64,000 nucleotides of DNA from an uncultured Siphonobacter sp. (GTDB lineage: Bacteria > Bacteroidota > Bacteroidia > Cytophagales > Spirosomataceae), in contig CAJYIW010000021.1 in the NCBI GenBank assembly GCA_913775095.1, positions 1-64,000 on the forward strand, read 5' to 3'. Shown here one piece after another: positions 12,508 through 18,213 of the stretch (its first letter is position 1; each line of letters begins with the position of its first letter). Below the pieces are notes generated by a model that was not told the DNA's origin, did no database searches, and saw only the letters and a program-made list of their open reading frames with translations. A program made the position numbers and the translations under genes.

Positions 12508-13563
12508 TTAGGACTCAAAAAACTGGTTTAAATAATTAACGACGAGAACGGGTTTGGGAAGCTTTTCTATTTTATCCGGGCTATAAAAATGCAGCTCTGC
12601 CGGAAAACCTTCTTCCGACGAGGTTTTCAGATGCCAGAATTTAGCCTGTATCCGCTGGTGTGAGAGTACATGGGTATACGAAGTCGATTCCTGTTCGAGC
12701 GTTAGCTGGGATTGCAGGGTCTGAAGCAGCGGGTGCTCACTTAAGGTTTCCCAATCCAGTAAACGGTCATCTTCCACCAGCCAGAAATCAAACATGGAAG
12801 TCCAGACATCTTTGGCGGGCCTTTCCCGCAGGCCCAGTCGACCCTCGTGCTCAATAACAAGGTAATGGAAATACCGTTCACGCACTTTGGTCTTCTTCGA
12901 TTTAACCGGAAGCTGAGCCTGCCGCCCCGTCGCGTTGGCTTCGCATACCGTATTGAAGGTACAAAACATACACTGCGGCGACACGGGTACGCACTGGGTC
13001 GCTCCAAAGTCCATGATGGCGTGATTAAACCGGGCGGGTTGGGCCGGGTCAATCAATTGATTGGCCAGGCTCGTGAACTCTGCTTTGGCGGCGTGGCTGG
13101 CAATGTCGGTTTCGATGCCAAAAATTCTTGAAAGAACGCGGTAGACATTCCCGTCTAATACGGCCACCGATTCATTAAAGGCAAACGAAGCAATGGCGGC
13201 CGCGGTGTAAGGACCAATGCCTTTCAGCTTCAAGAGTTCATGGTAGGTTTGCGGGAACTTTCCTCCGTATTCGGTTACAATGATCTGAGCGGTACGATGC
13301 AGGTTGCGAGCCCGCGAGTAGTAGCCCAGCCCCTGCCAGAGTCGTAACACTTCGCGTTCATCGGCTCGAGCCAGATCCGTCACGGTTGGGAACGCTTCGA
13401 TGAATTTGTAGTAATACGGCATCCCCTGCACCACGCGGGTTTGCTGCAGAATGATTTCAGAGAGCCAGATGCAATAGGGATCCGTTGTATGCCGCCAGGG
13501 CAGATCCCGTCCGTAGCGATCATACCAGGCCAGTAATTTAGGAGCAAAAAAATCGTTGGTCAT
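12508..13563 (-). CDS. mutY: A/G-specific adenine DNA glycosylase
   Basis: MutY removes adenine mispaired with 8-oxoguanine. In this 351-residue protein the catalytic Glu is E36 (LSEIILQQTRV), the helix-hairpin-helix is LKGIGPYTAAAIASFAF, the catalytic Asp is D137 (VAVLDGNVYRV) and the [4Fe-4S] cluster ligands are C191, C198, C201 and C207 (C-x6-C-x2-C-x5-C). The C-terminal half is the NUDIX-like domain that recognises 8-oxoG, with FWLVEDD and SHQRIQAKFWHL. It is the first gene of mutY-ssb-gldE; 80 bp separate it from ssb. Confidence 0.96.
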   Translation of the reverse strand: MTNDFFAPKLLAWYDRYGRDLPWRHTTDPYCIWLSEIILQQTRVVQGMPYYYKFIEAFPTVTDLARADEREVLRLWQGLGYYSRARNLHRTAQIIVTEYGGKFPQTYHELLKLKGIGPYTAAAIASFAFNESVAVLDGNVYRVLSRIFGIETDIASHAAKAEFTSLANQLIDPAQPARFNHAIMDFGATQCVPVSPQCMFCTFNTVCEANATGRQAQLPVKSKKTKVRERYFHYLVIEHEGRLGLRERPAKDVWTSMFDFWLVEDDRLLDWETLSEHPLLQTLQSQLTLEQESTSYTHVLSHQRIQAKFWHLKTSSEEGFPAELHFYSPDKIEKLPKPVLVVNYLNQFFES

Positions 13564-13864
13564 TTCATGGCTTAAAAGGGGGAAAAGTAAAATAACCAGA
13601 CCACCGAATTTCGCCCGTCAGAGTGTCAGTATGAACCGTATTTTACGAAAAATGACTCATTTTCTGCCAGTCTTTTCATTTAGTTTTTATCATAAATTAC
13701 ATTCTAAAAACCTTATTGCTAGGAGGTTATAAAAAAAATATCGTGGAGATTTATAAGGAATTCTTTTGCAAATGGATTCAAACCCGTACTTTTGTGCCTC
13801 TAAAATTTTGAGCCTTAGGCACTTTCTCAATAAAATAATTAATAAACCTTTAAAGTTTACCCCA
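13564..13864 (+). promoter_or_regulatory. HU gene promoter (Bacteroidota type) in the mutY-HU intergenic region
   Basis: The 300-bp gap between divergent mutY and the HU gene contains TACTTTTG at 13787-13794, an exact match to the TAnnTTTG -7 element, with TTTG at 13765-13768 as a -33 element 18 bases upstream. The leader from there to the GTG start is about 65 nt and A+T-rich. No other feature is seen in the gap. Confidence 0.75.
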
Positions 13865-14164
13865 GTGACCAAAGCAGACGTTATCGCAAAAATCGCCGAA
13901 AAGACCGGCATTGACAAAGCTGATGTAGCTCAAAGTCTGGAGACATTCTTCGGCGTAGTGAAAGAGGCTCTCGTGGATGGCGAGCCGGTATACGTTCGCG
14001 GTTTCGGCAGCTTCGTAAACAAAAAACGTGCGAAGAAAGTAGCCCGGAACATCTCTAAAAACACGACGATGGAGATTCCTGAGCACTACATTCCTAGCTT
14101 CAAACCAGCCAAGGAGTTTACGGAATCAGTAAAGACTTCTGAAAAAGCCAGCCAGGCGGTTTAA
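13865..14164 (+). CDS. HU family DNA-binding protein
   Basis: The 99-residue histone-like protein bends and compacts DNA as a dimer. The sequence from the GTG start (VTKADVIAKIAEKTGIDKADV) has the full HU/IHF fold: two N-terminal helices, the beta-sheet with VYVRGFGSFVNKKRAKKVARNI, and the DNA-binding arm ending NTTMEIPEHYIPSFKPAKEF. An upstream in-frame ATG would add 33 unrelated residues and would place the -7 promoter element inside the coding region, so the GTG is preferred. The basic arm keeps a Pro-containing tip (MEIPEHYIPSF). Confidence 0.92.
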   Translation: MTKADVIAKIAEKTGIDKADVAQSLETFFGVVKEALVDGEPVYVRGFGSFVNKKRAKKVARNISKNTTMEIPEHYIPSFKPAKEFTESVKTSEKASQAV

Positions 14165-14350
14165 GCAGCCCGGTTACCTGAACAGGCAGGGTAGGAAGAA
14201 AATAGCTGTACTTTTCTGCTTTCTTTCTACCCTTTTTGTTAAACAAGTGTATTTAGTAATGAATTGATTTGCTTTGGTAGTTGTTGAATTTGCGACTTCT
14301 CTATCTGGAAAGATGTATATCAGTCACAAATTTTAGTAAACATTACTCCT

Positions 14351-15199
14351 GTGAAAAAATCATTTATCGCCCTTATCGTTGTTGCTGTTGCTTCTATTGG
14401 TGGACTTTACAGTTTGCCCAAGATCGCAGTGAAGGATGATAAAAGAGCTGCCACAGAAACGAAAGTACCAACGCAGTCGGAAGCATCTTCAAAGGCTGCT
14501 TCTTCAGCTCCGGCAGCTGAAACTCATCTGCAACCCGTTTCAGCTCAACAACGACAAGCTCTTGACAAAGCTCGTCAGACGTTTGAAACGACCAGCATAC
14601 CCACGGACGAACGCATTCGGGCCGCTGAGCAATTGGTGGAACTCTTTACTCAAGTTACCCGGTTTGATAGTGCAGCGTATTTCGCCGGAGAAATTGCTGG
14701 ATTACAACCCTCCATCGACCACTTGTTAAAAGCGGGCGATCGGTATTACGAAGCCTTTACGTTTGCCCTTGACTCAGACAAAGCGGCAACTCTGGGCCAA
14801 CAAACCCGGGATTGGTATCAAAAAGCATTGGACAAGAATCCCAATCTGATGCAGGCCAAGGCCAACATGGCTATGACGTACGTTTCTACGGCGAATCCTA
14901 TGCAGGGTATCGCCATGTTACGTGAAGTCTTAGATCAGGACCCTGACTTTGAACCTGCCTTGTTTAATCTGGGTATTTTGTCGATGCGTTCCAACCAGTA
15001 TGAAAAAGCGGTTGGACGGTTTGAACGAATTCTGCGGACTCACCCGAACAGCACCCGTTCGATGTTCTATTTAGGCATCTGCTACGCTGAGACGGGCCAA
15101 AAAGACAAAGCCAAAGCTCTTCTCGAAGAGGTTCGGAAAAAAGAAACTGATCCCTCCATTCTGGCGGGAGTCCAGGAATACCTGGAACAGTTAAAGTAA
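14351..15199 (+). CDS. Membrane-anchored or periplasmic TPR protein
   Basis: The 282-residue product starts at a GTG and begins with a hydrophobic segment (about residues 5-24) followed by an Ala/Ser/Glu-rich linker. From about residue 135 it has three or so tetratricopeptide repeats, including MQAKANMAMTYVSTANPMQGI, PALFNLGILSMRSNQYEKAVG and MFYLGICYAETGQKDKAKA. This makes it a protein-protein scaffold, probably anchored in the inner membrane with the repeats in the periplasm. In Bacteroidota a TPR protein of this type lies between HU and RNase G genes, as here; its partners are not known to me. Confidence 0.82.
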   Translation: MKKSFIALIVVAVASIGGLYSLPKIAVKDDKRAATETKVPTQSEASSKAASSAPAAETHLQPVSAQQRQALDKARQTFETTSIPTDERIRAAEQLVELFTQVTRFDSAAYFAGEIAGLQPSIDHLLKAGDRYYEAFTFALDSDKAATLGQQTRDWYQKALDKNPNLMQAKANMAMTYVSTANPMQGIAMLREVLDQDPDFEPALFNLGILSMRSNQYEKAVGRFERILRTHPNSTRSMFYLGICYAETGQKDKAKALLEEVRKKETDPSILAGVQEYLEQLK

Positions 15200-15290
15200 T
15201 TTTTTAACGTCGTTGATGGTTGTTTGTTGATTGTTAATAGATTCTCTAGTAAAAGCAACAGATAACTGGCAACATTAAACTCATTCAATT

Positions 15291-15380
15291 ATGCCTTGCG
15301 GAAAGAAACGTAAACGCCACAAAATTGCTACCCACAAACGCAAAAAGCGTCTCAGAAAGAACAGACACAAGAAGAAATAA
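15291..15380 (+). CDS. 29-residue AURKAIP1/COX24-like (mS38/bS22-type) microprotein
   Basis: The frame ATG...TAA encodes 29 residues starting MPCGKKRKRHKIATHKRKKR and ending with further Lys, Arg and His; only a few positions are not basic. This matches the short C-terminal motif (KRxKMxKHKxRK-like) of mitochondrial ribosomal protein mS38 (AURKAIP1/COX24) and of bacterial bS22, and very short proteins of this family occur beside rng genes in Bacteroidota. A role as a small-subunit ribosomal protein is therefore inferred. It sits 92 bp after the TPR gene and 212 bp before rng. Its tight stop, conserved position and extreme but ordered composition support it being real. Confidence 0.8.
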   Translation: MPCGKKRKRHKIATHKRKKRLRKNRHKKK

Positions 15381-15400
15381 CATTGAGTGAAAGGTGAAGG

Positions 15401-15431
15401 GTGAAAAGTGATTTTTCACTTTTCACTTTTT
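15401..15431 (+). terminator. Hairpin after the microprotein gene
   Basis: A perfect 11-bp stem (GTGAAAAGTGA / TCACTTTTCAC) with a TTTT loop is followed by TTTTTAG. It is embedded in a longer simple-sequence tract made of GTGAAAAG/CTTTTCAC variants (15386-15450), so it may be both a terminator and one of the simple-sequence inverted pairs seen at other gene ends in this window. Confidence 0.6.
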
Positions 15432-15591
15432 AGCTTTTCATTTTTCACTCTCTGGGCTGGCTCGTTGGAGTTACAGCCTTTTTGTGTATCCACCCATTCC
15501 TGTTCTATCGGAGTGAAGGATTCAGTATTGCCGTTTACTCTGAACGGATTGTGCTGAATCTGATTACTCCCTAACCCTCTGAGCATCACCT

Positions 15592-17148
15592 GTGAGCAAT
15601 GAATTAATTATCAATTCGACTCCCAAAGGTGATAGAATCGCTCTTTTGCAGGACAAAAGAATCGTTGAATATCACTTTGAAGAGTCTGAAGAGCACTTCT
15701 CTGTGGGCGATATCTACCTGGGTACCGTAAAGAAACTGGTGACCGGGCTTAATGCCGCTTTCATAGATATTGGATACGAGAAAGACGCCTTTCTTCATTA
15801 CCTCGATTTAGGCCATAATATTAACTCCCTGAATAAGTTTACCAAGGACGTTATTGCCAAACGAGTGAGTGACGGAATGCTGAATGGCTTTGAAATGGAG
15901 CCGGAAATAGACAAGCACGGTAAGATTGACAAAGTCTTAGCGAAAAATGCACCTATTCTGGTTCAGGTTGTCAAAGAACCCATTTCTACCAAAGGTCCTC
16001 GACTTTCCTGCGATATTTCGATTGCAGGCCGCTTTTTAGTGCTAGTGCCTTTTGGCCATTCGATTAACATCTCCAAGAAAATTACCAGCAAGCAGGAGCG
16101 GCAACGTCTCCACCGCCTGGTACAGGGCATTAAACCGCCCAATTTTGGAGTTATTATTCGGACTGTAGCCGAAGGAAAAGAATCCGAAGAAATTGAACTC
16201 GACCTTCGAAGCTTGCTGGCCAAGTGGGAAGCCGGGATGAAAGCCCTTCGCGATGCCAAGCCCCGGGATAAAGTCATTGGTGAAATGAGCCGGGCCACGT
16301 CGATCATGCGGGATATGCTGAACGATAACTTCGACAGCATTACGCTTGATAACAAAGAGATGTACGAAGAAGTACGCTCGTATGTTACCCAGATTGCCCC
16401 CGAAAAACAGAATATTGTCAAGTTCCATCAGGGAAAAAACAAAGTATTCGAACATTTCGGAATTGAGAAGCAGCTTAAAATGCTTTTTGGCCGCTCGGTA
16501 AGTTTGCCCGGTGGTGGGTATCTGATCATCGATCATACGGAAGCCTTACACGTCATTGATGTGAACTCCGGCAATAAATCCAATCAGGAAGAAAGCCAGG
16601 AGGACACGGCCATCAATGTCAACATGGAGGCCGCCAAAGAAATTGCCCGTCAGTTACGGCTTCGGGATATGGGTGGCATTATTGTCATTGATTTCATTGA
16701 CATGAAGAAGCCCGAAAATAAGAAGCAGATTTATGATGTGATGCGGGAAGAAATGAAGCTCGATCGTTCGAAATTCACGATTCTGCCACTGACTAAATTT
16801 GGTCTTATGCAAATTACCCGTCAGCGGGTAAGACCGGAGCTTAACATTCAGACCCAGGAGGTTTGTCCAACCTGCGGCGGAACGGGAAAGATTACAGCGA
16901 GCATCGCAGTTTCGGATATTGTGGAACAGAATCTGGACTACGTGCTGAGTAAACAAAATGAGAAAGGGCTGCGAATCATGCTTCACCCCTATCTGTATTC
17001 ATTCTTCATGAGCGGTTTCCCGTCTCGACGAATGAAATGGTGGCTGAAGTACCGCACCTGGGTTAATTTGGTTCAGGACAGCTCGCTGGGTGTAACCGAA
17101 TTCCACTTTTACAATAAATCCGGCGAGCCGATTGAGGTTCACGGATAA
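15592..17148 (+). CDS. rng: Ribonuclease E/G family endoribonuclease
   Basis: The 518-residue enzyme cleaves single-stranded A/U-rich RNA in rRNA maturation and mRNA decay. It has an N-terminal S1 domain (about residues 36-125, SVGDIYLGTVKKLVTGLNAAF), the DNase I-like catalytic region with metal-binding D323 (HVIDVNSGNK) and D367 (VIDFIDMK), and the zinc-link C425-x2-C428 (CPTCGGTG) that joins dimers. The length is RNase G-like: there is no long disordered C-terminal scaffold as in E. coli RNase E. The start is a GTG (GTGAGCAATGAA). It follows HU, the TPR gene and the COX24-like gene on the same strand. Confidence 0.95.
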   Translation: MSNELIINSTPKGDRIALLQDKRIVEYHFEESEEHFSVGDIYLGTVKKLVTGLNAAFIDIGYEKDAFLHYLDLGHNINSLNKFTKDVIAKRVSDGMLNGFEMEPEIDKHGKIDKVLAKNAPILVQVVKEPISTKGPRLSCDISIAGRFLVLVPFGHSINISKKITSKQERQRLHRLVQGIKPPNFGVIIRTVAEGKESEEIELDLRSLLAKWEAGMKALRDAKPRDKVIGEMSRATSIMRDMLNDNFDSITLDNKEMYEEVRSYVTQIAPEKQNIVKFHQGKNKVFEHFGIEKQLKMLFGRSVSLPGGGYLIIDHTEALHVIDVNSGNKSNQEESQEDTAINVNMEAAKEIARQLRLRDMGGIIVIDFIDMKKPENKKQIYDVMREEMKLDRSKFTILPLTKFGLMQITRQRVRPELNIQTQEVCPTCGGTGKITASIAVSDIVEQNLDYVLSKQNEKGLRIMLHPYLYSFFMSGFPSRRMKWWLKYRTWVNLVQDSSLGVTEFHFYNKSGEPIEVHG

Positions 17149-17163
17149 GTAAATAAAGATCAG

Positions 17164-17191
17164 AGGTCCGGAAGCAACCGCTTCCGGACCT
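17164..17191. terminator. Bidirectional terminator between rng and the J-domain-like gene
   Basis: A perfect 12-bp stem (AGGTCCGGAAGC / GCTTCCGGACCT) with an AACC loop and a T-rich run on the plus side lies 15 bases after rng and 5 bases before the stop of the convergent gene. Confidence 0.9.
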
Positions 17192-17196
17192 TTTGT

Positions 17197-18213
17197 TTAA
17201 TAGTCCCGGAGAAAACTTTTTAAATGTTCGGGATTCCGATTTCGATTCACTTCTTCCCTGAGTTGTTTAATGGTCGCTTTTAGCTTTCGGATCTCCTGTC
17301 CAAACTTGGCTTCCATCCGCTGTGGTTCGGCCACAAATCGGGCTTGAAAATCATCCTTTCTGATTTCATTCAACCGGCTTTGTAACTGATCCGCCTGCTT
17401 CTTCAAGGCCTGATTGTAACTAATCATCTCCGGCATATCGGTTAACTCCTGGGCTTCGGCATGTTCGCTCTGAAGTTTTAGTAACGCAAACCAGTTTCCC
17501 TGCTGATAGGCTTCGGTTACTTCCTGCATCAGCCTGGTTTTGTGTTCCCGCCGGGCTTCGTCCCGCTCCCGATCCGGGTGAAAAAGTTTAGCTAAGGCCA
17601 TGTATAACTTTCGCAGGGGTATCATCTCTACGGGCACGGATTCCGGCGTGAGAACCGCCTTTTTCTGTTTCTTCTTTTCTTTCTTTTCCGCCCGTTTCTG
17701 CCGTTTTTCTTCCTGTCGGGCCTGTTGTTTTCCGATCTCCTCGGCCACGTAAGCCCGAAGCTCTTCTTCTGAATGGATGGAAATGCCTTCAAAACTGATC
17801 CCGAACTGTTCCGAAAACAGTTCTTTCAATTCAGTCAGACGATCTTTTGCGGAGACCGTTTTCTGTCCCGTGTGTTCATTATAGATTTCCCGTAAATCCT
17901 CCCGGCCAAACCTTCGAATCAGTACTTCCGATTCCTGAATGATAAATTCCTGTAAAGCCGCTTTTTCGGCCTTTCGAAACGCTTTGGAATGATAGGCATC
18001 ATTGAAGCCGTGTACCCGCAATACGTGCATCTCAATGATTTCCCGCTCCAGCGGGAGAATATCTTTTGTGACCCGCTCGCGGGCCATTGCCTCCCAGGTT
18101 TCGTAGTTCCGGATCTCCTCCCGCAGCTTTTCAATGCGTTGCAGGTGCTTTTGAAAGGTATCCTGGGCTTCAGAAAGGGCTTTTTGCTCCGGTGTATGTA
18201 TCAGCTTTTCCAC
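17197..18213 (-). CDS. Coiled-coil protein with a J-domain-like segment
   Basis: The 338-residue protein is mostly charged helix. Around residues 200-235 it has LRKLYMALAKLFHPDRERDEA followed by a helix ending AYQQGNW, the helix-HPD-helix arrangement of a DnaJ domain. A Lys/Arg-rich stretch (KRAEKKEKKKQKK) precedes it, and long amphipathic helices lie on both sides. The likely role is a co-chaperone that stimulates DnaK ATPase, but only the HPD region is recognisable and the domain is degenerate. No signal peptide. It is a single-gene unit. Confidence 0.65.
   Translation of the reverse strand: MEKLIHTPEQKALSEAQDTFQKHLQRIEKLREEIRNYETWEAMARERVTKDILPLEREIIEMHVLRVHGFNDAYHSKAFRKAEKAALQEFIIQESEVLIRRFGREDLREIYNEHTGQKTVSAKDRLTELKELFSEQFGISFEGISIHSEEELRAYVAEEIGKQQARQEEKRQKRAEKKEKKKQKKAVLTPESVPVEMIPLRKLYMALAKLFHPDRERDEARREHKTRLMQEVTEAYQQGNWFALLKLQSEHAEAQELTDMPEMISYNQALKKQADQLQSRLNEIRKDDFQARFVAEPQRMEAKFGQEIRKLKATIKQLREEVNRNRNPEHLKSFLRDY

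Follow-up and report, generated by a model that had tools for sequence, protein, structure and literature searches.

A 29-residue gene product of Bacteroidota, almost certainly the ribosomal protein bS22, and the genes that surround it

We report that a very short open reading frame in a 64,000-nucleotide stretch of DNA from an uncultured Siphonobacter sp. (hereafter the window, meaning the whole stretch analysed) almost certainly encodes bS22, a protein of the 30S ribosomal subunit, and is by sequence an orthologue of the bS22 chain of the F. johnsoniae ribosome. The 29-mer is in that respect ordinary, an already known ribosomal protein: easily missed for its size, yet genuine and nearly universal in the phylum (147 of 148 genomes). 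Gene finders and mass-spectrometry databases that omit it are incomplete. Our modest addition concerns gene order, in the form of two leads, neither of them demonstrated to be functional: the class-wide succession of bS22 and rng, and an older HU-TPR-bS22 neighbourhood, itself a small new lead. The features discussed below are as follows.

13865..14164, + strand: HU/IHF-family DNA-binding protein (Pfam PF00216, E 5.9e-26; GTG start at 13865 assigned by eye), seen repeatedly upstream of bS22 throughout the phylum
14351..15199, + strand: TPR-repeat protein of 282 aa upstream of bS22 (Pfam TPR_19, E 2.2e-19), which recurs here in many other loci
15291..15380, + strand: bS22 gene, 29 aa, ATG start and TAA stop, on the basis of translation, phmmer matches to PDB chains and synonymous variation
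15385..15448, + strand: long hairpin just 3' of the bS22 stop, from RNA folding, with a similar hairpin in 6/6 genus members
15455..15483, + strand: terminator-like hairpin in the bS22-rng interval, GGCTGGCTC...GAGT..CAGCC with TTTTT after it, in 6/6 genus members
15592..17148, + strand: rng, RNase E/G family protein of 518 aa with a GTG start (Pfam PF10150, E 1.8e-101; TIGR00757, 456 bits against a cut-off of 326)

Positions 15291-15380 of the forward strand translate as MPCGKKRKRHKIATHKRKKRLRKNRHKKK, followed by TAA, and a hand count gives 20 lysine, arginine or histidine residues among the 29. When 21 loci from the window's family are compared, 25 of the 29 codons vary and only one residue does, and the variable sites number 7, 0 and 25 at first, second and third codon positions, respectively. 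Such a distribution, together with near-fixed residues, is expected only of a frame that is translated into a strongly constrained protein, and judged by it the bS22 frame is a real gene under strong purifying selection at the protein level. The genome holds a single copy; a second, weak match (E 0.28, 32% identity) is no meaningful relative. The first-pass annotation had described a 29-residue basic protein at 15291-15380, placed between a TPR gene and rng and likely to be a component of the small ribosomal subunit. All three points hold, the first through the translation and the codon variation in the 21 loci, the second through the TPR protein at 14351-15199 and the RNase E/G family gene at 15592-17148, and the third through matches to bS22 chains of solved ribosomes. 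Its phrase 'almost all Lys/Arg/His' slightly overstates the composition at 20/29, but the protein is indeed very basic.

A phmmer search of PDB chains returned three distinct sequences, every one ribosomal and aligned without gaps over 28-29 residues: 7jil_5, the best (E 9.1e-10, residues 1-29), 9i5v_10, named as an AURKAIP1/COX24 domain-containing protein (E 1.3e-9, residues 1-29), and 8fmw_V, a 30S bS22 (E 1.6e-7, residues 1-28). A 16-row profile retrieved the same three chains from the PDB (E 1.7e-14 to 5.4e-13) and no other chain at E<=10, mycobacterial and mitochondrial ones included. The likeness to the F. johnsoniae bS22 (chain 5 of 7jil), a protein of similar length (30 aa), extends over all 29 residues with few substitutions relative to the window protein (for example C3S, I12V, L21A and K23A), and the Borrelia bS22, which belongs to another phylum, aligns over residues 1-28 (chain V of 8fmw, presumably the Borrelia entry). 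The F. johnsoniae ribosome was reportedly first described by Jha et al. 2021, a reference given in PMC10085706. The 7jil structure is that ribosome (PMC9976891, in excerpt), and the sequence of its chain 5 bears two names among PDB entries, 30S S22 and 50S L38. We consider S22 the correct one because the excerpted text of PMC10618245 separates bS22, a small-subunit protein in Borrelia, F. johnsoniae and M. smegmatis, from bL38, a different protein of the large subunit. Proteins of the Bacteroidota/Spirochaetota bS22 type are about 28-36 aa long and very basic, with the core motif KRK..K..[T]HKRKK.....RHK, and the window protein has each of these features; in the 16-row alignment M1, P2, G4, K6, R7, K8, K11, H15, K16, R17, K18, K19, R25, H26 and K27 are invariant.

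The relation to mitochondrial mS38 is less direct. The first-pass annotation had stated that the sequence matches the mS38/bS22 (AURKAIP1/COX24) motif and had proposed a profile search for that family. The naming of the PDB chains, the ribosome site and the bS22 matches agree with the statement, but the profile search gave nothing: Pfam COX24_C (PF08213) matched neither the window protein at E<=10 nor any part of the window genome at E<=10 (cut-off 23 bits). A scan of the 29-mer against Pfam and NCBIfam likewise yielded no significant match. COX24_C did match four of the 16 members of the bS22 alignment, the best relative at E 0.063, and with no match for the window protein we rejected an assignment to COX24_C by sequence. 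In view of the missing profile match, kinship with mS38 rests on the ribosome site and on published comparison. Excerpts of two papers present bS22 as the bacterial counterpart of mitochondrial mS38 (PMC10618245, PMC10085706), one of them naming mS38 in mitochondria and eL41 in eukaryotes as its analogues (PMC10618245). The same excerpts place mycobacterial and Cutibacterium bS22 and mitochondrial mS38 (AURKAIP1, COX24) in the same small-subunit pocket as an analogous bent helix, and give just 37% identity between the bS22 of C. acnes and that of F. johnsoniae (PMC10085706).

According to these partial texts, bS22 sits in an RNA pocket of 16S h2, h27, h44 and h45 and contacts 23S H68 (PMC10618245), while the C. 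acnes protein contacts H67 (PMC10085706). From the published structures of relatives we infer, by orthology, that the window bS22 occupies the same h2/h27/h44/h45 pocket. There it would fold as a bent helix, with its Lys/Arg side chains directed into the rRNA of the pocket; from its place on the small subunit's interface side, it would contact 23S rRNA once the subunits join and may brace rRNA close to the decoding region. In Borrelia, the excerpt reports no transposon insertions in the bS22 gene (PMC10618245). It also notes that tryptic LC-MS/MS missed a single ribosomal protein, bS22.

Matches to bS22 (E<=0.01) were found in all 39 relatives and in 147 of the 148 phylum genomes, or 82 of 83 genera, in a sample that draws many of its genomes from a few families. 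The sole phylum genome without a match, G147, which may have lost the gene or carry a diverged copy, has rng nonetheless; a renewed search of it with a 4-row profile, run with no positive control, found nothing at E<=10. A DNA pattern scan of genome contigs, which demanded lysine at position 20, gave at least 120 stretches; among the matches listed, 80 rows carried titles (73 Spirochaetota, 4 Bacteroidota, 2 Omnitrophota and 1 Coatesbacteria), and GTG starts were common in the bS22 frames. A tblastn search of phages and plasmids gave no match, with the low-complexity filter on and a query itself of low complexity, and an exact degenerate DNA pattern gave 0 stretches in viral contigs, in a scan that had no positive control and misses variants with V/K at position 14.

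The pairing with rng follows taxonomy closely. PF10150 is present in 148/148 phylum genomes, and rng follows bS22 directly, with both genes on one strand, in all 37 genomes of the window's class (counting its own genome and order) and in none of the 110 other phylum genomes with bS22, though these have rng, as judged by comparing the coordinates of both genes by eye. Outside the class (110 genomes) the two genes occupy separate contigs or are 80 kb or more from each other; one genome (G096) has its rng match split across contig ends. Profiles run on ten-kilobase loci place bS22 before rng in 11/11 class loci and in 0/22 from families outside the class, and 3-kb loci give 40/40 and 0/18, respectively; examples within the class include Aquimarina, Prevotellaceae, Saprospiraceae and Amoebophilaceae records. 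With 37/37 genomes inside the class against 0/110 outside, the adjacency is a real feature of the class and an old one there, and it is dispensable for the existence of either bS22 or rng. The occurrence of homologues beside rng in other Bacteroidota, on which the first-pass annotation had staked its proposal, is thus complete within the class but absent from the rest of the phylum. Among the pattern-scan loci (at least 120 listed), rng is downstream of bS22 in 4/120, all Bacteroidota and none titled Spirochaetota. The Borrelia-type (Spirochaetota) loci differ from the window in both flanks, which when searched showed no HU upstream and no rng downstream among the titled Spirochaetota rows of at least 120 listed loci.

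The upstream neighbours reach further. An HU gene lies upstream on the same strand, ending no more than 1.2 kb from bS22, in 14 of the 22 loci beyond the class and 10 of the 11 within it, and a TPR gene is found between HU and bS22 or just upstream of bS22 in 13/22 and 8/11, respectively. In many families HU, TPR and bS22 therefore succeed one another on one strand (HU in 24 and TPR in 21 of 33 loci; window 13865-15380; L060-L092), in a tally for which clusters of these very loci supplied the HU, TPR and rng profiles, with no random-locus control for adjacency. In that tally bS22 was placed by genome-search coordinates in 4/33 loci, and a TPR match 3.9 kb downstream in L072 was left out. When hand-picked loci were checked with Pfam, HU was confirmed in 5/5 and TPR in 3/3. 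In the literature on bS22 and Bacteroid ribosomes and on RNase G operons of Bacteroidetes, no title pointed to the HU-TPR-bS22 neighbourhood, in a search that was not specific to it.

The sequence between bS22 and rng is strongly structured. Positions 15381-15500, which take in the long hairpin and the one that follows, fold with an MFE of -47 kcal/mol (z -6.6 vs shuffles), and the stretch 15381-15460 occurs only once in the genome. We noted that the long hairpin (15381-15450) is near-perfect and built of GTGAAAAGTGA-like repeats. The hairpin at 15455-15483 is found in 6/6 genus members as four distinct sequences; one of its nine pairs shows a two-sided change and eight are invariant, and its covariation score was reached by 88 of 500 shuffles and is therefore no proof of pairing. 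Its possible role as a terminator is suggested by sequence conservation and by the run of T, covariation not contributing. When the 150 bases that follow bS22 were scanned strictly for terminator-like sites, these appeared in 3/11 class loci (1/110 shuffles) and in 8/22 loci outside the class (4/220 shuffles). The terminator-like hairpin between the genes in all six genus members argues against an obligate bS22-rng operon, which is unlikely in the window's genus; since such sites were found in just 3/11 class loci, read-through from bS22 into rng may occur in much of the class. A sigma-70 scan gave no site upstream of bS22, Bacteroidota promoters being outside the model of that scan, and no Rfam families were found in 13500-17300.

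Could the peptide be something other than bS22? An open frame of basic codons that arose by chance, with no gene behind it, would fit a length of just 29 codons and the silence of the Pfam and NCBIfam families, but it is refuted by residues that are nearly all conserved while 25 of 29 codons change, and it also sits badly with a match in 147/148 phylum genomes and with orthologues present in solved structures; we give it practically no credence. The frequent company of HU, which precedes bS22 on its strand at no more than 1.2 kb in 14/22 loci outside the class and 10/11 inside, could point to a nucleic-acid-binding peptide that partners HU, in place of a ribosomal role or alongside one. Its orthologues are chains of ribosome structures, however, and among the pattern-scan loci listed (at least 120, the titled ones mostly Spirochaetota) HU is upstream in just 4/120, three Bacteroidota and one Coatesbacteria, although bS22 is nearly identical there, and we regard a partnership with HU as very improbable.

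What its gene order means is a further matter. In E. coli, RNase G carries out the 5'-end maturation of 16S rRNA. It may be that bS22, close to h2 at the very 16S 5' end that RNase G trims, forms with this enzyme a dedicated 16S rRNA maturation unit whose joint expression would couple assembly to processing, a proposal favoured by the same-strand order in 37/37 class genomes and by the contact of bS22 with h2 described in the excerpt of PMC10618245. Yet the order is missing in 110/110 other phylum genomes with bS22, where rng is present, and a terminator-like hairpin separates the genes in 6/6 genus members, which makes such a unit improbable. The first-pass annotation had similarly envisaged a role in 16S rRNA or small-subunit assembly that linked the peptide to RNase G; its small-subunit half stands, in that bS22 is a small-subunit ribosomal protein, but for the same two reasons a functional connection between RNase G and bS22 found no support here. 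A wider reading would join both leads: an ancient, co-expressed HU-TPR-bS22 neighbourhood belonging to the phylum Bacteroidota sensu lato, with rng inserted after bS22 in the window's class such that 16S 5'-end trimming and the loading of bS22 at h2 became co-regulated, and with the TPR protein as a bS22 chaperone or small-subunit assembly factor. We consider this combination decidedly improbable. We favour the account in which bS22 before rng is a gene order inherited by the class, rng having been placed after an HU-TPR-bS22 neighbourhood of greater age.

Some smaller observations concern the flanking genes. After the HU gene, at 14189-14238, inspection by eye shows a hairpin (GGGTAG...CTACCC) and a T run, which suggest that HU is possibly its own transcription unit; this hairpin is absent from the output of the scan that covered sigma-70 sites, whose loop limit was 8. 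In a record titled Candidatus Coatesbacteria (L114), outside Bacteroidota, an HU gene lies just upstream of bS22. In front of rng, about 18 bases before the GTG (AACCCTCTGAGCATCACCT, window 15570-15600) are identical in 6/6 genus members, and the sequence before them is unconserved.
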